Assembly (NCBI GenBank): GCA_031763025.1
Contig: JASSKH010000001.1
Coordinates: 23,871,840 to 23,935,839 of the forward strand
Length of the DNA stretch: 64,000 nucleotides
Source: Macrocystis pyrifera
Taxonomy: Eukaryota; Sar; Phaeophyceae; Laminariales; Laminariaceae
Reading direction: 5' to 3'
Numbering within the stretch: position 1 is the stretch's first letter; every line of letters begins with the position of its first letter. Below, one piece after another: positions 4,265-44,254 of this stretch. Below the pieces are notes generated by a model. It was not told the DNA's origin, did no database searches, and saw only the letters and a list, made by a program, of their open reading frames with translations. A program made the position numbers and the translations under genes.

Positions 4265-4365
4265 AGTACCCTTGGGGGCACTTTGTTAACGCCGCCCCCG
4301 ATGGCCCTTCCAAGAGCTTACTGCACGCCCCAGAATTGGGGGCAAACTGGGGTACAGCCCCCCCC
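4265..4365 (+). repeat. GGGGGCA/TGCCCCC repeat, copy 1
   Basis: It has several GGGGGCA and GCCCCC words with inverted pairing potential, and resembles 6955-7065. Possibly a structured non-coding repeat; function unknown. Confidence 0.4.
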
Positions 4366-4371
4366 CTCACC

Positions 4372-4903
4372 CGTATGGGTTGGGATGGCGTCGGTTGGCA
4401 AGGACACCGTAAAACATGCCGCTCACTACGTGAGCTAGACATCCAGGGTACCGTTTTTTTTTTTTTTTTTTTTTTTTTGGCGGTCGCCCACAGCTGGTCG
4501 TCGAGTTAGATCATTTGTGCGAGGTAAAGAACCTTTACTCTGCACAAGGGAATTGATCGTATCACGTAGTGTTCAAGGTAAGGCACCCAAGAGGCAGTTT
4601 CATAGTACTCCCATTGCTTTCTCTAGAAGTGGCCACACCGGAAATTAATCTAACCCATCGAAGCTGTCATCCATATGCAAGTCCGCCTCACAAGCGGTTC
4701 TTAGTAGGATGCAGCTCACCCTTTATGCGACTCGCCGGACACCTCACGGCGCTTCGCGCCTGGTGCAAGCAATGTCTGCCTGGTCGGTGAAAACCCGACA
4801 TGCTCCGTCCCGGCATTGTAGGGATGCGAGGGTCCATGGTCATACGACTACGGCCATGCATGAGATCGAGTACATCTCTCCTATCGAGTACACCCCCCCC
4901 CCC
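4372..4903 (+). mobile_element. SINE-like element with poly(C) tail, near full length
   Basis: The element opens with GGGTTGGGATGGCGTCGGTT, runs through a T22-24 tract (about 4456-4479), a middle part with TTGATCGTATCACGTAGTG, and a 3' part with TTAGTAGGATGCAGCTCACC and GCATTGTAGGGATGCGAGGG. It ends in GAGTACA plus poly(C). More than ten copies or pieces occur in the window. The 3' word GAGTAC plus C-tract is shared with the LINE beside it. No transposition protein is encoded, so it is probably moved in trans. I did not find a clear tRNA-type A/B box pair. Confidence 0.78.
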
Positions 4904-4913
4904 CGAAAATAGA
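4904..4913 (+). repeat. Target-site duplication, left of LINE
   Basis: CGAAAATAGA here is repeated exactly at 6586-6595, on the other side of the LINE and its poly(C) tail. Confidence 0.75.
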
Positions 4914-4915
4914 TT

Positions 4916-6546
4916 GTGCAGAAAGCCTACGACACAGTATGGAGAAATGGATTGTGGAAAAAACTGTGGGAAATAGGAATCAGAGGAAAGATGTGGAGAA
5001 TGATGAAAAATATGACGGAATGTGCGAGAAGTGCTGTGATGCTGGACGGGGAAATATCGAAGTATGTTGATATTTTACAAGGTGTTGCACAGGGATGTAC
5101 GTTGTCACCTAACTTATTCAAGATATATATTAACGACCTGATAGTAGCAGTCGAGGGAGCAAGGCAGGGAGTCACGGTAGGGGAAGATACGGTGTCGGGA
5201 TTGATGTTTGCGAATGACTTCGTGGGGATATCAGAAACACCCGAAGGATTGCAGAAACAAATAGAGAAGGCGCTAGAATACACCAGGAAATGGAGGGTGA
5301 CGGCGAACGTCAAGAAATGCGCAGTAGTTGTTTGCAACGAAGATAAGGTAAACCCGGTAAATTTCAGTTGGAAGTGGGGAGAAGAGAATTGCCGATCGTA
5401 GACCAGTATACATACCTTGGCGTAGAGATCTCAAAAGACTGCTCTTGGGATACACATATAGCAAAAGTAATAGGAAAGGGTAAGGCACAAGTAGGCAAGA
5501 TGGATGCGATCCTAACAGACCCGAACCTTGACACTGGGATCAAGAGATGTATCTTGATTAATGTGATAGTACCAAAGCTAGAATATGCAGGAGAAGTATG
5601 GGAAGGGAACGCGAAACTCGTAAAACAGTTGGAAACAGTACAAATGACAGCAGCTAAAAAAATCCTGAGATGCTCAAGTACGACTAGTAATACAGTATTA
5701 AGAGCAGAACTGGGAATGCGCCCACTCAAGACAAATAGAGACATGAGAAAGTTGAACTGGCAATACAAAGTAAGGAACATGCCAAAAAAGAGGTTGCCAG
5801 CCATAGTTGATAGAGCTGTATGGGAGAAAGTATCAAAAGGACGAGCTGGAATAAGGTGGGATGGCGTAGTTGAGATAGTATGGAAGGATCTAGGGGGAAA
5901 CCAAGTAGAGATGATGTCCGCCGGGAAGTTTGGGAGGTACAAGGCAGAAGTAGAAGAAATGATAGAAAGAAGGGAAAGGCTAGCGCTAAGAAACAAGGTG
6001 GAATCGGAAAAACACTTGGAGATATACGGGGGATTGAGGGAAGGAATAGGAATGAAAACGTACTTGCATGGCCCAAGGGACTTCGCGAAAACGCTGAAAC
6101 TGCGCTTTCGTGTAGGGGACCTGGACCTGCCAGAAAGAAGAAAGAGGTACACCAGTAGCCGGGAAGAGGAGGAAGTAGACGCACAGATGTGCCCGTGTGG
6201 CAAAGCAATAGAGACTAGAACTCACATAGTAGGAGAATGTGAAATATTGAAGGAGTAACGGGATGTGTTAGAAGAGGAGATGAGGAAAATAGACGAATGT
6301 GACATGGAGGAGTTTGATACAATGAATAGCAGCGAGAAAACGATCGCTATCCTAGGAGATAGATGGTGGCCACAGGAGGCCAAACAGGAAGGGGATGAGA
6401 TTAGCAAAAAATTTCTATATAATTTATGGAAACAACGTAATGAGCGCCCAATTGTTGGAGGTGTCTCTATTAGGAGTAGGAACGGTGCTCCGTCTCGAAA
6501 GGGATGCGTGGTCAATGGTCAAATGACTAAGGCAAGCAACAAATGA
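4916..6546 (+). pseudogene. LINE ORF2 remnant: reverse transcriptase and C-terminal zinc knuckle
   Basis: The first part (to about 5370) shows RT blocks: AYDTVWRNGL, GVAQGCTLSPNLFKIYIND and the active-site block LMFANDFVGIS. The normal (Y/F)ADD is FAND here, so the first catalytic Asp is Asn and the enzyme should be dead. A frameshift near 5368-5400 moves the protein to another frame beginning around ELPIVDQYTYLGVEI, a typical LINE post-RT block. A TAA at 6256-6258 interrupts that frame (ILKE-stop-RDVLEE), which then continues to a TGA at 6544-6546. A Cys/His motif, CPCGKAIETRTHIVGEC, lies near 6190-6240. The final stop is only a few bases before the poly(C), so there is almost no 3' UTR. RT family is certain; the clade is not resolved. 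Confidence 0.88.
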
Positions 6547-6551
6547 GTACG

Positions 6552-6578
6552 CCCCCCCCCCCCCCCCCCCCCCCCCCC
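6552..6578 (+). repeat. C27 tail of the LINE
   Basis: Twenty-seven consecutive C follow AAATGAGTACG, then GCCGCCG and the right target-site copy. Confidence 0.8.
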
Positions 6579-6585
6579 GCCGCCG

Positions 6586-6595
6586 CGAAAATAGA
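6586..6595 (+). repeat. Target-site duplication, right of LINE
   Basis: Exact copy of 4904-4913. Confidence 0.75.
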
Positions 6596-6954
6596 AACCC
6601 ATGCTATATACCACGCGCGATGACTGCGACCGTAGGACGCTACCTTTGCAAGTGTGCCTGAGAATTGTCCACGGCACCTACTGCCGTCGTGGGTCCAGGC
6701 AGCAGCCGTGCCTGGTGTGGTGTGGTCGCATGCTTCATCACATTGTCCGTATTCGGAGGTACACACTTGAGTTTTTGCTGTGCCTCCAGAAGATGCTCTT
6801 GAGAGGTGACGATTATTGAGGATGTAGATTCGGCGAGAAGAGATGACGGCCGGAAGTAGAAGTTTTCCCACGGCGGCAGTAGATGCCCGGACAACCCTCG
6901 GGCAGATCTGGCATCCTACGGTCGCCGTCATCGCGCGCGCGGCGAAAATAGCAT
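6596..6954. other. Spacer, no gene seen
   Basis: Mixed composition. Reading frames on both strands lack recognisable motifs. Confidence 0.45.
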
Positions 6955-19379: not shown

Positions 19380-22300
19380 AGTTCTTAGTAGGACGCAGCT
19401 CACCCTTCATACGGCTCGCCCAACACCTCACGGCGCTTCGCGCTTGGTGCAAGCAATGTCTGCCGGGTCCGTGAAAACCCGACATGCTCCGTCCCGGCAT
19501 TGTAGGGATGCGAGGGTCTATGGTCATACGACTACGGCCATGCATGATAATGAGTACACCTCCCCCCCCCCCCCGTCGGCAGTATTGGGATGCGAGGTTC
19601 TATGATTATACTCCTACGGCCGTGCATTACAACTCCTACAGCCATGCATGACATGACTATACCCCCTTGTACATCCCCCCAACCCCTAGCAGCTTCCCCC
19701 CCCCCCCCCCCCCCTCCTTCCTTATATATCCGGTGTATATAGGTTGGGTTGGCGTCGGTTGGCGACGACGCTATAAAACACACTTCTCACTGCGTGCGCT
19801 AGACAGCCAGGGTACCGTTTTTGTTTTTTGGCGGTTACCACGGCTGGCGGTCAAGTTAGATCATTCTCGTGCGCGGAAAACCTTTGCTCCGCACAAGGGG
19901 GATGATCGTATCACGTAGTGTAAATATGGTGAGGCACCCACGAGGCAGTTAAATTGTAAACACATTGCTGTCTCTAGAAAGTGGCCACACCAGAAATTTG
20001 ATCAATTCATTGATGCTGTCATCCATATGCAAATCCGCCTCTAAAGCGATCCTTAATAAGATGCAGCTCACCCTTCATGCGACTCGCCCAACACCTTGCC
20101 GCGCTTCGCGCTGGGTGCAAGCAATGTCTGCCTGGTCGGTAAAAACCCGACGTGCTCCGTCCCGGCATTGTAGGGATGCGAGGGTCTATGGTCATATGAC
20201 TACGGCCATGCACGATAATGAGTACACCCCCCCCTCCTCCTCTGCCGGCAAACAGTTACAGCCTGCAAGACTGCGTAGTCAGCTCAGCACTGACTATATG
20301 GTCTAACAGTCAGGCTTTCCTGTCTGACTAAGATTCTATCTTTCCCTTTCATCCCCCTCCCTGCTAGTCACAAAGGATAGCCTGCAAGGCTGATTGCCCA
20401 CTTCAGCACTAAGTGGTCTAGGAAGGTCATCCTGCCCGACTGTCGTCCTTTCCCCCTCTTTCCTCTCCCTCCCCCCTCCCCACCTCTACTAGTCAGAAAG
20501 GATGACCTGCAAAACTGCCTAGCCAGTTCGGCACTGACTACGTAGTCTAGCAGGGTATCATTTCTGGCTTCCCCTCCCCCCCCTCCCCCTCTAAGCAACT
20601 ATCTTTCATGTAGTATAGAGTATGGAAAAAACGTATTGAGCGCCCGAATGTTGGAGGTGTCTATTCGGAGTATAAAAACGGCGCTCCGCCTCGAGGCGGC
20701 TGCGTGGTCAATGGTCAAATAGATGACTTAAGGCAAGCAACAAAAGAGTACCCCCCCCCCCCCCCCCCCCTCCCTCGCCTCCTCCGTTAAACCGACAACC
20801 TGAATATTATACTACATACAATATTCATAGCTGTTTTAAGTATGGTTTCGGGTTCGATTCCAATATTGACGTGTGTGACGGTAGAGGTACCACCTGTTTG
20901 CCTTCCGGGGATCCTCGCTTAAAGAGCTCTACACTATTAGTAAGTCATTAGTATTATTATTAAGTCACCCAAAAAAATATTTTTCACGAAAGAAATAGAC
21001 GCTTGACCTTTTTAGGACTGCTCTCCCGTTTTGGAGACAGTTGGGGACAAATTACTTGGGATTAGAGTTGGATGGATGTTTTCTGGACAGTGCAGTACTA
21101 AACAAGGGTTAACCTATTACGGGGGACCATACATAGTAAACAGGACCAAACATCGTTAGTAAAAAGAGGGAAATGTACAGTAGTTTTTTGTGTGTACCGT
21201 AGGCCCTAGTTGCTACTGTGTTCCCCCGCAATAGTCCTATCGTAAGTACTGTTTCGAATTGTGTTGCAAACAAAATACGGCATGTTTGCCTTATTGGGTA
21301 GTTCCTCAGTCGAGAAACCCCCGTCAGTCAGATTTTTTTTCGCCTAAAAACGGTATACCGGGATGTAGTTCGCCTCTCTCGTCGGCTAACCTGTGTTATT
21401 ATCATCATTGGTACTAAAAGATACACCTCTTCGACCTAGTCCACGCGTCGGGAATATCACCGATTCCCAAACTTCATTATCTAGATCTTTCAGGGTAGAG
21501 AGATTGGTGATCTGTATGATCTGTGTGATCTGTATGATCTAGCTTATGTTGCCGGGTGGGAGCAGTGTAACTTGCATGATATTGCACAGGTTTCCTGGGT
21601 TGGATCTGTACCGTACAGATCCTGCACAACATGTCATAACGGCAGGATATTGGGATATATCTAGATCATCTTTAGATCATTCATCTGTAGATGATCTATC
21701 TGCACATGATCTATCTAAAGATGATCTATCTGTCTGTCCTTGTGGACTATTAATAGTCTACTTACGGTCTGATGGAATGGTCTAGACCAGCATCTTGTCG
21801 TTCTACCCAACATATTCTTCCTCCCCCCCCCCCCCCCCCCCCCCCCCCCTCCCTCCTCCTTCTCTGCTAGCCAAAACATCAATGTCCTGCTATTAATAGT
21901 CTACTTGTAATAGTAGTATGAGTCCGTGCTGACTACATAAGCCGGCAGGTTATCCTTTCTGGCCAACCGGTATTTTTTCGGGTTCGATTCCAATATCGCA
22001 GGTTCGTAGCATGCACAACGGTAGTATTGAGAGATAACCCCTGCCGGACTACTCAGTCGGTGCCGACTAATAAAAGGAAGCCTACGACGGTACATAAACA
22101 GGTCATTCTTTTCTGACGAACGTCCTCTCCCCTCTGCCAGTCAGAAAGGATAGGCCCACCATCAATCGAGCACGGTGCTCGGGGCGACTTGTGTAGCAAG
22201 TTGTCCTTTGTGACTTGGAGTAATAAATATACTTCCGGGTTTGCTTTCCGGTATCGCAAGGCTACTATTAATAATAGCTTTTTGTTTCGTCAGAGGAGAG

Positions 22301-24154: not shown

Positions 24155-24232
<78 letters not shown>

Positions 24233-27200
24233 ACTTATTTGTTGCTTGCCTTAGTCATTTGACCATTGACCACACATCCCTTTCGAGAGGGGGGGGGGGG
24301 GGGGGGCATTGTTGGGCCCAAACTGTTCTGCGCATCAGACATACAGATCATCTACAGATAGATCATGTAGATCATGTACTGTAGATCCTATATTTTCTGT
24401 TATGATATGTTGTACAAGGGCCGCATATGTATATCATCCAGATCTCACCGACCAAATATGCGCGCAGAAAAGCGGTGCCCCTACAGATCCCACCCAGCAC
24501 AGCATGCTGTATAGGCATGCGTATCAGGGATCCATCAGTAAGAGATACGCCCAAATCACTGAGCTACAACAGTCAGCGCTGACTGTTGGCTCAGTGGTCG
24601 GAGTGTATCTCTAGTAAAACCACGATCCGGAGTTCAAATCTCTCCAACGTCCTTCTTGCCAGGGTGTATCTCTAAGCACTACCTGCTCCCGAGAGAGTTA
24701 GATCATCGATTGGGAATCCATCTGACACGTCCTACATTGTAAAACGTTGATTGGATGCCGCCAATATATTTAGAACCCCCTTCGTGTTTTTTACTTCTGA
24801 AGATTTGCCTATACTGTAGCCCATGGGATTGTTCCACACGTCTGGTAGACGATCTACAATTCATCTCCAGATGGGTCGTCTATCGATAGATCGTCTACAG
24901 ATAGATTATCTACACATATGTCATCTACAGACATATCACCTACATATCATCTAGATAATTTCCAGATTCATCTACAGATCATCTACAGATCATCTACATA
25001 TTCATTTACAGATCATCTATAGATCCATCTACAGATCATCTACATATATATAGATCATCCGCATATAGATAGATCATGTAGAAAGCCTACAGATAGATCA
25101 TCCACATATAGATAGATCATGTAGAAAGCCTACAGATAGATCATCCACAAATAGATAGATCATGTAGAAAGCCTACAGATAGATCATCCACATATCGATA
25201 GATCGACTACAGATAGATAGATCATCTACAGATGGATCATCTACTCATTGATCATCTAGATCCTAAACTACCGTTCTGAGGTGCTGTGCGGGACCTGTAT
25301 TCGAGTAGTACCAACAGATCCGACCCAGAAAACATGGCCTACGTAGACCATGCAGATTTGTGTGGCTCCCGATGGACAACACGCGCTGTAGATCGTACGA
25401 GGTCGGGCAAGCTGTCTTTCGTGAAATATGTAGAGTGTAAAAAAAAAAAATGAAAGCCTTTTTTTTTTTCCAGTTCCAGTACTATTTCAGGTATAATTTG
25501 GACCTTTCACGGCTGTCTCGCGTGATGTCTACCTTGTTAGGACCTTCGCCACAAGACAAAGCATGGCGCCTAGCGGATTTGCATATGTTTTTTAATTGTG
25601 GTCACTGTCTGTCTCCTTCTTAGAGTTTCCTCGTTCGCCAACCCGGTTCAGCGAGCAAGCCTTTAGCACCTCCTTGGGCCCCAGACAATGGCTCCAGTAA
25701 TACCCTTGTACGTCCTTATTTTTCCTTCACTTCGGTCTTCGTTCTCTTCTTCAGCTTTCGCTTCGGTTTCTGTCTCCTTTTGCGTTCGTCTTTCTTTGTT
25801 TTCATTTTGGGTGATTTCTCCTTTCGCCTCTGCTTTGAGTTCTGTCTCTCTCTCTCCTTTAGTCTCCCTTTCAGTGGTTGTTCTCAGCGAACACCCTCTC
25901 GTCGTAGTATCTGGGTCTTATTACGAGGTATGGGGGGATCTATAGCCTCATTTCTTATGTTTCGAATAGCCGCATCTTCGACCACCTTTTTCCTGGCCGT
26001 TTGGGATGAACTTTGTCATCACCCTCCGACCATCTTGTGGTCTGCATATACGACTATTCAGGGTGGGCTAATGTTATATGAGTAGAGTACTCATGGGCCA
26101 TAGATATATATAATACGTTGCAGTCTTATAGTCTCACGAATACGAGAATAATCCAAAGAATGGATTGACCCGGCGGATATTCCGTTAGTCGAGAGTACCG
26201 TTCTTTTAGGAATGTTCCCTAGGGCGGATAGCCCGTTAGACGAGAGTAATGTTCCTTGACGCAGATAGGACTACGAGGTGAGAAGTTCTTATATTAGCCG
26301 AAGAACGATCGGTAGCCAGAAGGAAAGTTCTGTAGGCGTACATCAGATAAGAGGAATTTAGGAGAGCTTGTGGCATGGGGTGGGACGAGTATATCTGGGC
26401 GTCGAGTCCCGCCCCCTACCTCTCACTTCTCTACCAGAGCACCTCCTCAGCTCTCGCCATCAGTAAGAGGATCTAAATCAGAAGAAGCGAAGCACTGCTT
26501 TCCAGCTGCCAGAACCACCTGCGTCCCTTACCACTACCCTTACCACTACCCTAGAGCGGCCCCCGCATCACACGACTCCCTACTCTGCCGGAAACGACTA
26601 TTCTCCGGTTCTAATGCCCAAACCATCTCCCTCTCAGCAGCTTTAGACAGCGTAGGCCGTAGGCAATGTTTTTGTGGCGGACTTCGGATAGAAAAGTTCC
26701 TCCTATTAATATTACGGGGGACCATAGTAAATAGGACCTACGGTACACACAAAAACCCACATATTTACCTGTTTTACTTACAATATTTGGTCCCATTTAC
26801 TATGGTCCCCCGTAATAGAGAGACCCTAACGAACACGCTGTACGTTGGTCGGGAGATAGTCAGAGCATTAGAACTAGAGCTATGCCGTGTTTGGCAAGGA
26901 GTCATGATATGGCATAATTGTACCAGAAATGGTGTCGCTGCTTTAGAAAAGACGAAAAAACGCTTTTTTTTTCCCGAGACTCAGTACTCTTTTTTTTTTG
27001 TGTTGACCGAAGGGAGCACCGCCCCTTGAGTGGGGTTTTGGGCGTTTTTCGAAGTATCCTTTCTCTTAACGCTGGAACCACACGCGCGTACCACACCATA
27101 TTGCCCGATTTTTATCCGTTATCCTAGACAAAAAAAAGCATGAAGGCGGCACAGGCGGCTCTTTCTAGGAGGTATGGTGAGGCGTATCGCACCGGGGAAA

Positions 27201-31140: not shown

Positions 31141-32389
31141 TGCTGTTGTGCTGCTGCTGCTATCGCTTTCATGTGAGGGAGAGGCCATCTTTCCTGCACA
31201 AGCGCCGTTGGCAGTAGGTACAACTCGCCGTAGATAGGTGTGATACTTCGGCGTGGGTATTGGGTACTTGGCAGCTGGGCAGATAAGGGGAGGCAGTACT
31301 GTAGTAGACAAAATCCAAGTAATCTCATCTGTTCTGAGAAATGAGACGAAACCTCTCAAAACTGAGCTGATCTCTGCCCCCTCCAGGAACTGAGATCAAA
31401 AGCGCCGATGCTTTCCTGGCCAGCAATACACGGCTCTGATTTTTGGGCTTCAGATATCGCTGAAAAAGACAGAAATAGCGTCGCAAAAAAATGCCATAAA
31501 AGTTGGTCCATAATACGAGTGAGATAGATACAAAAACTGAGAACTGAAACTCGGCATTGCCTTTTTCCTGCACCACTTGGAATTAGTAAGATCAATTGTT
31601 GCAATTATGTTATTTAAGTTACTCAAGACTAATCACAAATTGGCTCCCTATCCGGAGCATGGGTGCAGGCAGGCAGGCACCCATGGGGAGACCTTATATA
31701 TTTTGTGGGAACGCGCAGAAATGGGGTAGGGAACGATGTGTCCCCTACCCCCCGTAGGATAGGATCCTCCGTGGAGGACTCGCAGTAGGGGCCCCCGTAT
31801 AGGGCTGTTCGGATCGGGGTCTCCGTACGATCGTTCGTAGGGCCCCCAGTGGGGGATCCCATAGCCCCCCCCCCCCCCCCCCCTCCATATATATTATATA
31901 TGGGTTGGGTTGGCGTCGGTTGGCATCGACACTGTAAAACATGCCGCACACTACGTGAGCTAGACATCCAGGGTACCGTTTTTTGTTTTGTTTTTTCACC
32001 CACAGCTGGTCGTCGAGTTAGATCATTTGTGCGAGGTAACCTTTACTCTGCACAAGGGAATTGATCGTATCACGTAGTGTTCAAGGTAAGGCACCCAAGA
32101 GGCAGTTACATAGTACTCCCATTGCTGTCTCTGGAAGTGGCTACACCGGAAATTAAATAACTCATTGAAGCTGTCATCCATATGCAAGTCCGCCTCACAA
32201 GCGGCTCTTAGTAGGATGCAGCTCACCCTTCATACGACTCGCCGGACGGTGCTTCGCGCTTGGTGCAAGCAATGTCTGCCTGGTCGGTGAAAACCCGACA
32301 TGCTCCGTCCCGGCATTGTAGGGATGCGAGGGTCTATGGCCATACGACTACGGCCATGCATGAGATCGAGTACATCTCTCCTATCGAGT

Positions 32390-32422
<33 letters not shown>

Positions 32423-33965
32423 TATATTATATAGGTTGGGTTTGCGTCGGTTGGCAACGACACTGTAAAACATGCCGCTCACTACGTGAACTAGACAACC
32501 AGGGTACCGTTTTTTTTTTTTTTTTTTTCACCCACAGCTGGTCGTCGAGTTAGATCATTTGTGCGAGGTAAAGAACCTTTACTCTGCACAAGGGAATTGA
32601 TCGTATCACGTAGTGTTCAAGGTAAGGCCCCCATGAGGCAGTTGCATAGTACTCCCATTGCTGTCTCTGGAAGTGGCTACACCGGAAATTAAATTAACTC
32701 ATTGAAGCTGTCATCCATATGCAAGTCCGCCTCACAAGCGGTTCTTAGTAGGATGCAGCTCACCCTTCATGCGACTCGCCGGACACCTCACGGCGCTTCG
32801 CGCTTGGTGCAAGCAATGCCTGCCTGGTCAGTCAAAACCCGACATGCTCCGTCCCGGCATTGTAGGGATGCGAGGGTCTATGGCCATACGACTACGGTCA
32901 TGCATGAGATCGAGTACATCTCTCCTATCGAGTACACCCCCCCCCCCCCCCCGAGGGGTCCCGAAAAAATATCAATTATTCGACGCTGTCATCCATATCC
33001 AAGAACATCCGCTTCAAAAGCGGTTCTTAGTAGGTTGCAGCTCACCCCTTCATGCGACTCGCCCAACATCTCACGGCGCTTCGCGCTTGGTGCAACAAGC
33101 AATGTCTGCCTGGTCGGTGAAAACCAGACGTGCTCCGTCCCGGCATTGTAGGTATGCGAGGGTCTATGGTCATACGACTACGACCGTGCATGGTAATGAG
33201 CACCCCCCCCGCCCCCCCCAGGGGTCCCGTATGTACATATAGGTTCGGTTGGCGTCGGTTGCTAGCGACGCTGCAGAATGTGCCGCTCACTACGTACCTG
33301 AGCTAGACAATCAGGGTGCACACCGTTTAATATTTTATTTTATTTTGTTGTTGGCGGCCAGTCGCGGCTGCCGATCGAGCTTGTAGATCATTTCGTGCGG
33401 GGTGGAGAACCTTCACTCCCGCCCAAGGTGGAATGATCGCATCACGCAGTGTTCTATGGTATGGCATCCGCGAGGAAAGTCACAAAGTACTCCCCTTGCC
33501 GTCGCTGGAAGCGTTTTTCATTGCCGTTTTTTTGTAAGTCTTAATCTGGTTCCGAAGTGTATCAAAATAATGCCTGGCACGTTTTCGATCTTTTCCGTTT
33601 TTTTTTTCGTGTGTGTTTGAAGAACATGGTTTAATAAGTGTGATTTTCTTTCTTGCCGTTTTTCTACTGCGAACGGGTTCTCTCTGGTTTCCGGTGTCCG
33701 CCGGGGACAAAAAAAAAGTGCAACCTTCACAGGAAGAGAGTCCTGCGGCCCTGGAAGGCGGTCGGTTCCACGTGCGCTTTTACCGTATAGAACAACCACG
33801 CAAAGGTGCCTCCATTCCTACGTGAGTGCCTGGTTGTTTGTTTTTGTCCGGCAACTCCCCTCGATGCCGTCAGCGGCCCCAAGCGGTCGTTCGCTAAATG
33901 TTTGTTTCAGGCGAGCCTTCGTTCTCTCGCACGCGGCTTATCCGCTCTTCATTCTCGCCCCCTGA
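15922..33965 (+). CDS. TAZ zinc-finger protein (transcriptional cofactor-like), multi-exon
   Basis: Exons proposed: A about 15922-16105, B 16537-18320, C 19187-19301, D 23800-23915, E 29740-29863, F 33733-33821, G 33911-33965. Every junction has GT..AG and matching phases (1, 2, 0, 2, 0, 2). Exons C-D-E join into one full TAZ domain with three H-x3-C zinc sites: HAVTC-x4-C-x4-C; HHANC with CGLC; HARDC-x4-C-x4-C (LVPYC). TAZ domains of CBP/p300-type proteins bind transactivation peptides in the nucleus; that role here is inferred from family. The N-terminal 600 residues are Ala/Ser/Gly-rich low complexity. Exon B changes frame at an A10 tract (17691-17700). The start is unresolved (the first in-frame ATG is at 16081) and more exons may lie between E and F. 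No HAT, KIX, ZZ or BTB domain was seen. Confidence 0.75.
16537..18320 (+). CDS. TAZ gene, exon B, low-complexity region
   Basis: The acceptor TTTCTCAG precedes 16537 and the donor CATCAG|GTATGT follows 18320. The first part, to about 17690, is one frame (starting GDDVGAPEAMAATT, with Ala and Ser tracts). After the A10 tract the sensible frame is shifted by one, giving Ser and Thr tracts, a Gly run and finally LKAFPGRMLGRAAFTGAR. That second frame ends in phase 2 and continues correctly into exon C. The frame switch may be a sequencing error, a length-variable A-tract, or a missed intron. Base composition is much GC-richer than its surroundings, as expected for coding DNA here. Confidence 0.6.
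17691..17700 (+). repeat. A10 homopolymer at the frame switch
   Basis: The coding frame before this run and the frame leading into the TAZ exon differ by one base. A change of two deleted or one inserted A here would join them. Confidence 0.55.
18405..18452 (+). repeat. (CTG)n microsatellite in TAZ intron
   Basis: About fifteen CTG/TTG units just downstream of the exon B donor. Confidence 0.85.
19187..19301 (+). CDS. TAZ gene, exon C (first zinc site)
   Basis: The acceptor GGTTTCAG precedes 19187 and the donor AAG|GTGAAC follows 19301. After one base completing a Ser codon, 38 codons include LEHAVTCQDQHCQVEKC and end EKMK. The H-x3-C-x4-C-x4-C-x2-MK pattern is the TAZ signature. A 57-bp C-tract starts about 20 bp into the following intron. 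Confidence 0.85.
19323..19379 (+). repeat. C-tract of about 57 bp
   Basis: Almost pure C with one T near its start. It directly precedes a truncated SINE-like copy. Confidence 0.8.
19380..19575 (+). mobile_element. SINE-like element, 5'-truncated, C-tailed
   Basis: It begins at GTTCTTAGTAGGACGCAGC, matching the 3' third of the 4372-4903 copy, and ends GATAATGAGTACACCT plus C-tract. It lies between two C-tracts. Confidence 0.8.
19576..19714 (+). mobile_element. SINE-like tail fragments between C-tracts
   Basis: GGCAGTATTGGGATGCGAGG and GCCATGCATGACATGACTA are diverged SINE tail words; the piece ends in another C-run (about 19699-19714). Confidence 0.6.
19728..20233 (+). mobile_element. SINE-like element, near full length
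   Basis: It starts GTATATAGGTTGGGTTGGCG, has a shortened T-tract, and ends GATAATGAGTACACCCCCCC. Diverged but colinear with 4372-4903. Confidence 0.8.
20255..20575 (+). repeat. Tandem units with CTGACTA..TAGTC words
   Basis: Three diverged units of about 100 bp, each with CCTGCAA-ACTGC, TCAGCACTGACTA or a variant, GTCTA-CAG, and a C/T-rich spacer. Related units recur at 21880-22345. Confidence 0.55.
20612..20770 (+). mobile_element. LINE 3' tail with C20
   Basis: It matches the last 130 bp of the 4914-6585 LINE (GAGCGCCCGAATGTTGGAGG, GTGGTCAATGGTCAAAT, GGCAAGCAACAAAAGAGTAC) and ends in C20 (20751-20770). Confidence 0.82.
20771..21116. other. TAZ intron spacer
   Basis: GGGTTCGATTCC at about 20848-20859 resembles a B-box; otherwise nothing supported. 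Confidence 0.35.
21117..21231 (+). mobile_element. MITE copy 5
   Basis: TTACGGGGGACCATACATAG to CTGTGTTCCCCCGCAA, 115 bp, TA on both sides; more diverged than other copies. Confidence 0.75.
21492..21735 (+). repeat. AGATC-rich interspersed repeat, + copy
   Basis: GATCTGTATGATCT units are followed by TTTCCTGGGTTGGATCTGT, ACAGATCCTGCACAACAT, an ACGGCAGG word and further GATC units. The same ordered words recur at about eight sites on both strands. Confidence 0.7.
21823..21849 (+). repeat. C27 tract
   Basis: Pure C run, with no obvious LINE or SINE tail directly upstream. Confidence 0.85.
21880..22345 (+). repeat. CTGACTA/TAGTC repeat units, second cluster
   Basis: Diverged copies of the 20255-20575 units, on both strands, with B-box-like TCGGGTTCGATTCC at about 21978-21991. 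Confidence 0.45.
22348..22452 (+). mobile_element. MITE copy 6
   Basis: TTACGGAAGACCATAGTAAA to TTTACTACGGTCCCCCGTAC. It belongs to the GTAAATAGG subtype. Confidence 0.82.
22612..22718 (+). mobile_element. MITE copy 7
   Basis: TTACGGAGGACCATAGTTAA to TTAACTATGGTCCCGCATGTAA, TA on both sides. Confidence 0.84.
22719..23084. other. TAZ intron spacer
   Basis: CT-rich run at about 22827-22850; no supported feature. Confidence 0.35.
23085..23613 (+). mobile_element. SINE-like element, diverged, near full length
   Basis: GGTTGGCGTTGGTTGGCAAC at the left, T9 tract, GTGACCGTATCACGTAGTG, and the tail GCATGACATGAGTGCACC plus C9. Confidence 0.75.
23800..23915 (+). CDS. TAZ gene, exon D (second zinc site)
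   Basis: The acceptor AATTTGAG precedes 23800 (preceded by a long C/T tract) and the donor GG|GTGGGT follows 23915. In phase 0 it reads TLLEHHANCETGG, GCGLCRRISALIQLHAR and DCRKD, ending with two bases of a Gly codon completed by exon E. H-x3-C, C-x2-C and H-x3-C are in the order expected for the middle of a TAZ domain. Confidence 0.85.
24155..24231 (+). repeat. G77 homopolymer
   Basis: Seventy-seven consecutive G. On the - strand it is the poly(C) tail of the LINE tail at 24232-24288. Confidence 0.9.
24232..24306 (-). mobile_element. LINE 3' tail (reversed) between two G-tracts
   Basis: TACTTATTTGTTGCTTGCC and TTTGACCATTGACCACAC match the reversed LINE tail. It is only 57 bp long and is followed by a second G-run (about 24289-24306). 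In sense orientation it is C-tract, tail, C77. Confidence 0.82.
24480..24660. repeat. Two head-to-head tRNA-like relics around a perfect palindrome
   Basis: CAACAGTCAGC|GCTGACTGTTG (24567-24588) is a perfect 22-bp palindrome. To the right, TTGGCTCAGTGGTCGGAGTG and GGAGTTCAAATCTC resemble A and B boxes. To the left, the - strand has TGTAGCTCAGTGATTTGGGC. Acceptor stems do not close. Confidence 0.45.
24840..25265 (+). repeat. GATC/ATCTACAGATAGATC minisatellite
   Basis: Tandem words TCATCTACAGATAGATC and a higher-order unit of about 60 bp (GATCATCCACATATAGATAG, ATCATGTAGAAAGCCTACAG) repeated about four times at 25060-25200. It is the expanded core of the AGATC repeat. Confidence 0.8.
25266..26711. 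other. TAZ intron, no gene seen
   Basis: It contains an A-tract then T-tract near 25440-25470, a frame (25688-25945) rich in Ser and Phe without features, and variant TAG-CGAGAGTA repeats near 26190-26250. Confidence 0.35.
26712..26815 (+). mobile_element. MITE copy 8
   Basis: TTACGGGGGACCATAGTAAA to TTTACTATGGTCCCCCGTAA, 104 bp, TA on both sides; termini are perfect inverted repeats over about 20 bp. Confidence 0.88.
26816..27539. other. TAZ intron spacer
   Basis: A-rich run at about 27366-27393. A frame at 27140-27360 has no recognised domain and is not called. Confidence 0.35.
27540..27690 (+). repeat. CGGGTACCCGG-rich repeat, copy 1
   Basis: Many CGGGTA, GTACCCGGG and CCGGGT words with inverted complementarity. 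The same vocabulary fills 63536-63770. Confidence 0.6.
27897..28290 (-). repeat. AGATC-rich interspersed repeat, two - copies
   Basis: Two successive reversed copies contain TTGTGCAGGATC, GCAGATCCAACCCAGGAAAC and CATGTGCTACTGTAGATC or ACGTGCTACTGTAGATC. Confidence 0.7.
28565..28860 (+). pseudogene. Possible decayed coding fragment, family unknown
   Basis: One frame reads protein-like text with an internal TAG (DHVAMKFGFNPRNASKTVAL, stop, then FEFSRHRCCLAFYFGDNAK and SYLPRIQKALAEPPNSVRHE). Composition is more coding-like than the surrounding intron. I do not recognise the family; it could be a transposon or retrogene relic inside the TAZ intron. Confidence 0.25.
29740..29863 (+). CDS. TAZ gene, exon E (third zinc site)
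   Basis: The acceptor CTTTCGCAG precedes 29740 and the donor CAG|GTGCAG follows 29863. After one base completing a Gly codon, CLVPYCVRLRRRLLAL closes the third H-C-C-C site and forms the basic last helix of the domain. It continues as polar sequence NNERRDLAASSEKR to DHDRQ in phase 0. Confidence 0.83.
29884..29935 (+). repeat. (AAAC)n microsatellite
   Basis: Runs of AAACAAAC just downstream of the exon E donor. Confidence 0.75.
30077..30181 (+). mobile_element. MITE copy 9
   Basis: TTACGGGGGTCCATAGTTAA to TTAACTATGGACCCCCGTAG; TA on both sides. Very close to copies 1 and 4. Confidence 0.86.
30403..30508 (+). mobile_element. MITE copy 10
   Basis: TTACGGAGGACCATAGTAAA to TATGCCCCCCCGTAA; TA on the left, changed on the right. 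Confidence 0.82.
30509..31082. other. TAZ intron spacer
   Basis: A frame at 30511-30768 lacks any recognised motif. Scattered GCTGCTG leads into the CTG tract. Confidence 0.3.
31083..31138 (+). repeat. (CTG)18 microsatellite
   Basis: About 18 uninterrupted CTG units with further imperfect units on both sides. Confidence 0.9.
31139..31864. other. TAZ intron spacer
   Basis: GGGGCCCCC-type words with inverted complementarity near 31780-31860; no gene. Confidence 0.3.
31885..32422 (+). mobile_element. SINE-like element A, full length, C32 tail
   Basis: It begins after a C19 run with TATATATTATATATGGGTTGGG, and ends CTATCGAGTA plus C32 (32391-32422). It lacks about 14 bp of the 3' part (GACACCTCACG) present in other copies. 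Confidence 0.85.
32423..32952 (+). mobile_element. SINE-like element B, full length
   Basis: It starts directly after element A's C32 tail, is highly similar to it, and ends GAGTACA plus C-tract. Confidence 0.85.
32964..33219 (+). mobile_element. SINE-like element C, 5'-truncated, with 10-bp target duplication
   Basis: The fragment starts AAAAAATATCAATTATTCGACG and ends GGTAATGAGCACC plus C/G run. AGGGGTCCCG flanks it exactly at 32954-32963 and 33220-33229, the same duplication length as for the LINE. Confidence 0.82.
33230..33510 (+). mobile_element. SINE-like element D, 5' half only
   Basis: TATAGGTTCGGTTGGCGTCG, the T-rich middle and ATCGCATCACGCAGTG match the 5' half of the family; it breaks off after the GTCGCTGGAAG word. 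Confidence 0.7.
33733..33821 (+). CDS. TAZ gene, probable exon F
   Basis: The acceptor CCTTCACAG precedes 33733 and the donor CCTAC|GTGAGT follows 33821. Phase 0 in, phase 2 out; it reads EESPAALEGGRFHVRFYRIE then QPRKGASIP. The strong splice sites and fitting phases support it. No domain is recognised. Confidence 0.55.
33911..33965 (+). CDS. TAZ gene, probable last exon G
   Basis: After an 89-bp intron ending TTTGTTTCAG, one base completes a Thr codon and the frame reads RAFVLSHAAYPLFILAP to a TGA at 33963-33965. Confidence 0.45.
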
Positions 33966-43325: not shown

Positions 43326-43769
43326 CGAGCTGTGGCATATTGGGTGCTACGTATTTACCTGTTGGTCAAGAGAAGTTTCCTGGCGTGCTGATCGCGTGAC
43401 GAATACTCCCACTACACTAACGAAAACGCGTGAAGTATTCTTCCATTTGCGCAAGTGTTATGCGTTTGTTTTGTGCTGCTCACCTGTGTGGCCTTGGCCC
43501 CACCCAACGAAACCCATGAAACAGCTCTCCCCCATAGCCTCATTACCTATCCCCCCTGCTTCCCCTCAACCCCAGCGTTTTCATCTCAGCTCTCTCCAAA
43601 AACAGATTTTCTTCCCAAGCCTCCTCGCCGCCCCCGCCCCCGTCTCCTTCACCAACTTCTCAATTCTGCAAGGCGAGGACCATCACAGTGGCACTTTGAC
43701 TTCCCGTAGCAGCCCTCTCCCTATGACATGTTCTCCATCTGAGCCACCCCCCCCCGCGCCTAGTGTTTA

Positions 43770-44100
43770 TGGTAAGGAACCCAAGAGGCAGTTACAAAGT
43801 ACTCCTATCGCTGTCTCTGGAAGTGGCTGTACCGGAAATTAAATCAATTCATTGATGCTGTCATCCATATCCAAGAAAACCCGCCTTTAAAGCGGTTCTT
43901 AGTAGGATGCAGCTCACCCTTCATGCGACTCGCCCAATACCTCACGGCGCTTCGCGCTTGGTGCAAGCAATGTCTGCCTGGTCGGTGAAAACCCGACATG
44001 CTCCGTCCCGGCATTGTAGGGATGCGAGGGTCTATGGTCATACGACTACAGCCATGCACGAGATCGAGCACATCTCTCCTATTGAATACACCCCCCCCGC
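43770..44100 (+). mobile_element. SINE-like element, 3' part, C-tailed
   Basis: It begins near GGTAAGGAACCCAAGAGGC, just after a C-run, and ends TATTGAATACACC plus C-tract. Confidence 0.8.
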
Positions 44101-44254
44101 CTAGACAGTGTAAATCAAATATGCTACTGATAGGAGACGTGTCTTCGTGGGCGCGCCAAGGCCGTCTCTTTTGGCCTTAGTACACCAAGTTTAGTGTAGG
44201 GGGCGGTCAGTCAAGGCGGTCAAACCGCGGTCTTCTATCGAAAACTAATTGGTT
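44101..44254. other. Short spacer downstream of the peptidase gene
   Basis: GTCTCTTTTGGCCTTAG and flanks; no supported feature. Confidence 0.3.

Follow-up and report, generated by a model that had tools for sequence, protein, structure and literature searches.

The LINE and SINE-Like Copies in the Window

The window, that is, the whole stretch of 64,000 nt analyzed here (G000, contig C189, positions 23871840-23935839), contains a near full-length, non-autonomous SINE-like element and, downstream of it on the same strand, a 5'-truncated LINE copy (Table 1). The SINE-like element has a length of about 520 nt, and its 3' half gave 14 more BLAST matches in the window. The sequence-only reading had described a LINE that ends in a C27 tract between exact 10-bp duplications, and a SINE-like family that ends in ATCGAGTACA plus a C-tract. 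The latter is borne out by the C12 tract of the copy in the window. As for the LINE, its C27 end and both copies of the duplication are exact, as had been described, but 7 nt precede the 3' copy of the duplication and a third, near-identical copy lies at 6943.

Table 1. Positions of the LINE, the SINE-like elements and their flanking features in the window (position 1 is the first nucleotide of the window).
Feature	Position	Strand	Remarks
C9 tract, putative target C-run	4358..4366	+	7 nt 5' of the start of the SINE-like element
SINE-like non-autonomous element, near full length	4374..4892	+	3' end motif present twice: 4861-4874 and 4879-4892
Internal T25 tract of the SINE-like element	4454..4478	+	T-rich tracts likewise placed in other long copies
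3' domain common with the LINE	4820..4874	+	From alignment of majority sequences
C12 tail of the SINE-like element	4893..4904	+	Follows ATCGAGTACA; apparently also the LINE insertion target
Target duplication CGAAAATAGA, 5' copy	4904..4913	+	Its first C also ends the C12
5'-truncated LINE copy	4915..6551	+	Covers the RT and the C-terminal part of ORF2; reading frames disrupted
LINE 3' domain common to the SINE-like family	6500..6550	+	Codes for the last ORF2 residues (GCVVNGQMTKASNK)
ORF2 stop codon TGA	6544..6546	+	5 nt (GTACG) ahead of the C-run
LINE C27 tail	6552..6578	+	Directly after CAAATGAGTACG, which ends at 6551
GCCGCCG spacer between tail and 3' target duplication	6579..6585	+
Target duplication CGAAAATAGA, 3' copy	6586..6595	+
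5'-truncated LINE copy with C20 tail	20621..20770	+
LINE piece (~60 nt) with C77 tail	24155..24306	-	Starts directly after a C18 tract
Head-to-tail chain: C19, SINE-like copy, C32, SINE-like copy, C16	31865..32952	+
SINE-like copy between C9-GCGCCTAG and C8-GCCTAG	43747..44104	+	Possible, weaker duplication over the C-run; score 4.9

The duplicated sequence occurs window-wide only at 4904-4913 and 6586-6595, and at least two matches to it were found in 1 of 100 dinucleotide shuffles. The near-copy at 6943, CGAAAATAG, agrees in 9 of 10 letters and lies beside a neighboring foldback element (approximately 6595-6937, in the region 6581-6951), the arms of which, 6614-6649 and 6902-6937, are 83% complementary. 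This foldback element sits between 14-nt direct repeats ending in CGAAAATAG, which explains why the LINE duplication has a third copy. Judging from these sequences, part of the CGAAAATAGA repeat may predate the LINE; since the near-copy flanks the foldback element, the simplest reading is a nested duplication, with the foldback element coming earlier and the LINE afterwards. At 2240-2950 of the window, degenerate repeats of TATCGTATCGA-like units were seen by eye.

The reverse transcriptase domain RVT_1 (PF00078) was matched on positions 4913-5398 of the window with an E-value of 2.9e-15 and 57 bits (cut-off 29.6). The Ectocarpus relative P0022 matched the same domain with 91 bits (8e-26), and a LINE piece in the sampled locus L014 did so with 26 bits, under the cut-off. 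P0022 also matches by sequence the R2 and LINE-1 reverse transcriptases of known structure, and it has MFADDF where the window copy reads MFANDF. Copies longer than that of the window, also broken, are present in L029 (minus strand) and L014. Pieces of the L029 copy matched Exo_endo_phos_2 (PF14529; E-value 3.9e-6, 27.2 bits, curated cut-off 27.4) and Exo_endo_phos (PF03372; E-value 2.4e-4, 21.4 bits, curated cut-off 24.5), and an endonuclease-like piece in L014 reached 25.3 bits; all endonuclease matches come from broken copies and fall slightly below the cut-offs. Taken together, these endonuclease-like and RT domain matches support the assignment to an APE-type LINE. The starts of the copies are scattered over many points, indicating 5' truncation, which L1 copies show as well. 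In RTE elements the 3' UTR is very short and consists of a simple repeat, and the same is seen in the LINE, the stop codon of which lies 5 nt from the C-run.

Among the named protein relatives of the LINE are entries from Ectocarpus (P0003, P0022) and Sphacelaria, on the strength of which we take the host to be a brown alga; one near relative, P0002, is catalogued under a bacterial MAG. Membership in the RTE-X group is inferred from the Ectocarpus relatives and from a published survey of Ectocarpus (PMC12477816). No relatives were found in the genome-contig collection, either by protein search or by DNA pattern. The viral-contig collection likewise gave no relatives by protein and none by the SINE pattern, apart from one chance match on a phage-like contig (L009).

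Poly(C) Tails across the Genome

We found 9,021 exact matches (4,465 + 4,556) to AATGAGTAC-N-C8 (AATGAGTACNC8; AATGAGTACNCCCCCCCC) in the host genome of 537,376,219 bases and 223 contigs, as compared with a single match (0 + 1) to the reversed pattern in the same 537 Mb. Copies were then called in two sets of loci. The fixed-step set consists of the window and 20 stretches of 10 kb (L010-L029) taken at 1.2-Mb steps along the same contig C189, so that all of its copies come from one contig of 26.5 Mb. The motif-picked set consists of 47 loci (L001-L007, L030-L069) from the approximately 100 listed among the 9,021 motif matches; L008 was dropped for its overlap with L007, and L009 is the phage contig. 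Calling yielded 127 copies whose 3' end could be aligned. Both flanks were available for 115 of them, and a k-mer rule left 88 non-redundant copies; the fixed-step set, window included, supplied 46 of these. Pieces with no 3' end to align were excluded from the tail counts, for example the LINE piece at 1395-1561 of the window (minus strand), which has other sequence at its end and no C-run there.

When the 40 nt that follow the 3' end were compared across the fixed-step set, C formed the longest homopolymer in 45 of 46 copies and A in the remaining one, so that an A-rich tail is not what this family carries. A C-run of at least 4 was present within 16 nt of the 3' end in all 46 copies and a run of at least 6 in 37, with a median of 9 and a maximum of 76. 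A profile scan run separately over these stretches yielded 49 ends, of which three (window 1390, window 19633 and L011 394) had no C-run directly after them, as judged by eye. The tail that had been claimed from the sequence alone is therefore seen at the same 3' border family-wide in the copies examined; the opposite outcome, most copies lacking a C-run there, had been named beforehand as fatal to the claim and was not observed. An old LINE copy in L010, approximately 79% identical to the window copy, retains a C-rich end, and the poly(C) tail is thus not a recent novelty of a single subfamily.

C-rich borders were also seen in other assemblies. Among the 120 homologues of the SINE-derived frame listed out of 395 found, 98 translations go on for 20 residues or more beyond the 3'-end peptide. 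Since poly(C) encodes proline in every frame, proline-rich translations can be read as C-rich ends, and proline made up 30% of residues 4-13 past the peptide, as compared with 4.5% over the preceding segment of up to 60 residues. The Laminaria digitata record P0171 (...DDEYTSLPPPP) is one such end. Runs of at least 4 prolines within 20 residues were present in only 17 of 98 translations, so that these data support a C-rich border and not long runs; assemblies from short reads would probably be interrupted at such runs.

Duplicated loci on small contigs differed in the length of the C-run (24 vs 5 in L038/L040, 65 vs 38 in L032/L053 and 34 vs 50 in L033/L057), suggesting that the lengths may reflect very unstable tracts or include assembly noise. 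We rejected an assembly artefact as the source of the runs themselves, as duplicated loci keep the run and C-rich borders recur in other assemblies. In the 200 kb of L010-L029, 49 of 71 tracts of at least C10 were not at a scored copy (tracts of at least A10 numbered 50); possible sources of such C-tracts are other C-tailed families, decayed copies or empty targets.

A 3' End Common to the LINE and the SINE-Like Family

Alignment of the majority sequences of 62 SINE-like and 29 LINE 3' ends, which were not de-duplicated, showed a common stretch of about 54 positions with a score of 47, as compared with 25 for the best of 2,000 shuffles. The common end is thus real and longer than the last 10 nucleotides originally pointed out. 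On the LINE side it corresponds to the C-terminus of ORF2 (...GAPSRKGCVVNGQMTKASNK, stop), and the Ectocarpus relative P0021 ends similarly (...GAPSRKGRVVNGQK). Since the common stretch codes for the ORF2 C-terminus, the SINE-like partner appears to have, as its recognition tail, a fragment of the LINE coding region. A hairpin with a GGUC/GACU stem, spotted by eye in this domain, was dropped, as RNAalifold on 35 sequences gave no consensus pair. Several loci contain tiny copies with a BLAST extent of approximately 38 nt (L011 8080, L031 1272, L041 1255, L064 1255 and L038 1403), which reach barely beyond the common 3' domain and in several cases stand directly after a C-tract; these may show the minimum needed for retrotransposition.

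The label "SINE" is supported by the 3' end shared with a LINE, but in the strict sense of the term it is unproven, because no tRNA-, 5S- or 7SL-derived head was found and a T-tract lies inside full-length copies. ARAGORN detected no tRNA in the window, Rfam gave no match at the gathering score, and the one SINE-like copy tested at E ≤ 5 showed no credible match; these searches thus gave no hit for a tRNA, 5S or 7SL origin of the head. An internal T-tract would be expected to stop Pol III, and its position about 80 nt into the long SINE-like copies is unusual for a transcript of this polymerase. It may be that the head is a separate short RNA gene fused to the LINE-derived 3' part.

C-Tracts at the Insertion Site

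The insertion site is also C-rich, which the sequence-only reading had overlooked; as tail and target agree, the finding goes further than the original claim. In the fixed-step set, 36 of 46 copies had a C-run of at least 5 on the same strand within 45 nt 5' of the junction, and a G-run of this length was present in only 5 of 46, so that the association is strand-specific. Random positions had a C-run in 6.2% and a G-run in 5.6% of cases (copies versus random, binomial p = 6e-35), and the boundaries of other repeats in the same stretches had them in 14 (2.8%) and 10 of 492 cases, respectively. Together with the reversed-pattern control, these comparisons led us to reject chance as the source of the tail and target pattern.

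Both families showed the upstream C-run, with 10 of 12 LINE and 26 of 34 SINE-like copies in the fixed-step set, including 8 of 11 near-full SINE-like copies, and 12 of 14 and 22 of 28, respectively, in the motif-picked loci. It was present in 70 of the 88 non-redundant copies and for 64 of these 70 its end lay no more than 14 nt from the junction; for 30 of the 64 the distance was 0-3 nt. With an upstream run of 5 in 36 of 46 copies and none in the other 10, C-tract targeting is a strong preference but not exclusive insertion at a defined simple repeat. A search for empty sites among the sampled loci returned self-matches, nested copies and repeats, and no usable empty site.

In some cases the C-run 5' of a copy trails the end of another copy, as does that of the window LINE. 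This was true of 22 of the 70 upstream runs (10 of 36 in the fixed-step set) by annotation or motif, and of 10 of 64 by the motif criterion alone. Tandem SINE-like units with the same C-rich spacer (C9-TCCCCACACTAG) were seen in L022 at 1176-2232, and look like tandem amplification as opposed to separate insertions.

Target Duplications and the Origin of the C-Tail

In some copies, the nucleotides between the C-run and the 5' junction reappear past the tail. Duplication scores of at least 7 were obtained for 5 of 88 copies, as compared with 0.75% of shuffled pairs, and scores of at least 6 for 11 of 88 (12.5%) as compared with 1.9%; the excess at scores of 4-5 was only about twofold, and the test is blind to duplications of C alone. 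Six of the 11 duplications scoring at least 6 (L022, L035, L002, L062, window 20621 and window 31892) are to be discounted, because they lie in tandem or simple sequence or distant from the tail. Approximately five are convincing, namely GTCTTTCCT and CCTCCGTC in two copies of L049, CCGGACAAC in L024, AGGGGTCCCG at window 32960 and CGAAAATAGA at window 4904; GCCTAG at window 43761 is a weaker case. A few of the target duplications cover the C-run plus about 10 nt.

One explanation of these data is that the RNA has no C-tail, and that the element is specific for C-tracts, the apparent tail being no more than a target C-run that was duplicated along with the rest of the site and now stands on the 3' side. 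The upstream C-runs at 36 of 46 sites agree with this, as do the C-runs on the two sides, which are on average equal in length (64 pairs, medians 9.5 and 11.5, p = 0.85), so that target-derived and RNA-derived C are inseparable in most copies. However, 18 of 88 copies lack an upstream C-run of at least 5, and yet C-runs border their 3' ends, with a median of 8 and including runs of 17, 21, 27, 33, 34 and 56 nt. For seven of these 18, a C4 is present in the 40 nt upstream, as judged by eye; the other 11 have none, and among them are 3' runs of 17 (a LINE, L045), 21 (L035) and 27 (L015). As long 3' C-runs occur where there is no run upstream, the element seems to bring or make its own C, and an RNA lacking a C-tail is in our view unlikely.

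Alternatively, retrotransposition may be ordinary, and a short 3' C-stretch may have been lengthened after insertion by replication slippage or by assembly error. The differences in run length between duplicated loci speak for such changes, and C-homopolymers are common in this genome, including the tracts away from scored copies noted above (49 of 71). Lengthening at the 3' end would nevertheless leave unexplained the C-runs on the 5' side, which are rare at the boundaries of other repeats (14 of 492), and the duplications over the C-run. C-rich ends are moreover found in other assemblies, including that of L. digitata (P0171). We thus consider this explanation improbable. Element-C(n)-element chains could also arise, in place of targeting, when units are duplicated in tandem, when C-tracts recombine with one another or when the RT jumps between templates. 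Such chains are found at window 31865-32952 and in L022, with one spacer recurring from unit to unit, but as only 22 of 70 upstream C-runs trail another copy, the others having no annotated copy before the run, and as truncation points vary, these processes stand as a minor contributor and are very improbable as the general explanation.

Discussion

We consider it likely that an abundant RTE-like LINE of the APE type and its SINE-like partner (about 520 nt), which have in common an end of about 54 nt plus poly(C), prime on the ends of G-tracts. In this mechanism, the LINE protein would recognize the common 3' domain in the RNA of the LINE or of its partner, and the LINE endonuclease would nick the G-strand at or beside a C-tract. 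The 3' end of the G-run would then pair with a C-tail carried by the RNA and prime reverse transcription, by analogy with L1 at T-tracts, and this pairing would drive the choice of target. A second-strand cut up to about 10 nt past the C-run would produce the duplication of the C-run plus 0-10 nt that is seen in a few copies. Each insertion would deposit a C-tract that is itself a new target, so that copies would nest. The broader proposition, that the tail homopolymer sets the target and that the family, by creating its landing sites itself, spreads in nests, we would give an even chance.

The pair of a LINE and a non-autonomous partner with a common 3' end is already known, whereas the C-tail and the preference for C-tracts appear to be new. 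In Ectocarpus, RTE-X is the LINE group with the most copies, and RTEX-N1_Ec32, an element of approximately 600 bp with a head of undetermined origin, has its 3' end in common with RTEX-1/2 (PMC12477816). As far as that text goes, the similarity extends to the host being a brown alga, to the abundance of the LINE and to a non-autonomous partner with a LINE 3' end, and the two may well be the same kind of pair. In contrast to our data, however, the passages of PMC12477816 on RTE-X and RTEX-N1_Ec32 describe no tail or target for them, and its main text contains neither "poly" as a whole word nor "homopolymer".

Another LINE/SINE pair with simple-repeat tails is Bov-B, of the RTE clade, and Sauria, whose 3' ends are microsatellite-like. 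The first nucleotide of the target duplication is described there as matching the tail run, A with (CAA)n, one species excepted, and T with (ACCTTT)n (PMC13295347). Unlike this pair, with its A or T tails and targets, the present one would be a C case, with longer target runs. L1 is described as priming at imperfect T-tracts (PMC3649969), and Alu as mobilized in trans by L1 through a relaxed recognition that needs no common 3' sequence (PMC3747384). The present pair would resemble L1 and Alu in its homopolymer tail, the matching homopolymer at the nick, the partner mobilized in trans and the 5' truncation, but differs from their poly(A) and T-tracts in base, and from their lack of a common 3' sequence in having about 54 nt in common. 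Insertion into simple repeats is also reported for Togen, which inserts in (TG)n, such microsatellite-targeting elements being related to the RLE-encoding NeSL (PMC4640811). By comparison with that account, the present LINE has an APE-like endonuclease, its target is a mononucleotide C-tract, and the targeting is a preference only.

The tails named in PMC3747384 include poly(A), TAA, TGTAA and TTG repeats and poly(T). Neither a poly(C) retrotransposon tail nor C-tract targeting was found in the literature searched, the scope of which ended short of the bracketed spelling "poly(C)", subscription papers, Repbase and supplements. The spelling "poly-C" occurred there for the end of a ciliate DNA transposon.

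In L1, the role of the tail and that of the endonuclease in choosing the landing site are hard to tell apart, because the A-tail and the T-rich nick site occur together. A high-copy family in which tail and target are both apparently C/G offers a natural test of tail-target pairing and, if the proposed mechanism is true, would be a natural "recoding" of the poly(A)/T-tract rule of L1 into a poly(C)/G-tract rule. The pair also illustrates how a LINE domain, the end of the coding region, is borrowed by a non-autonomous partner. Finally, some of the C-homopolymers in this genome are explained by the family; such tracts are troublesome for assembly and for short-read work on brown algae.
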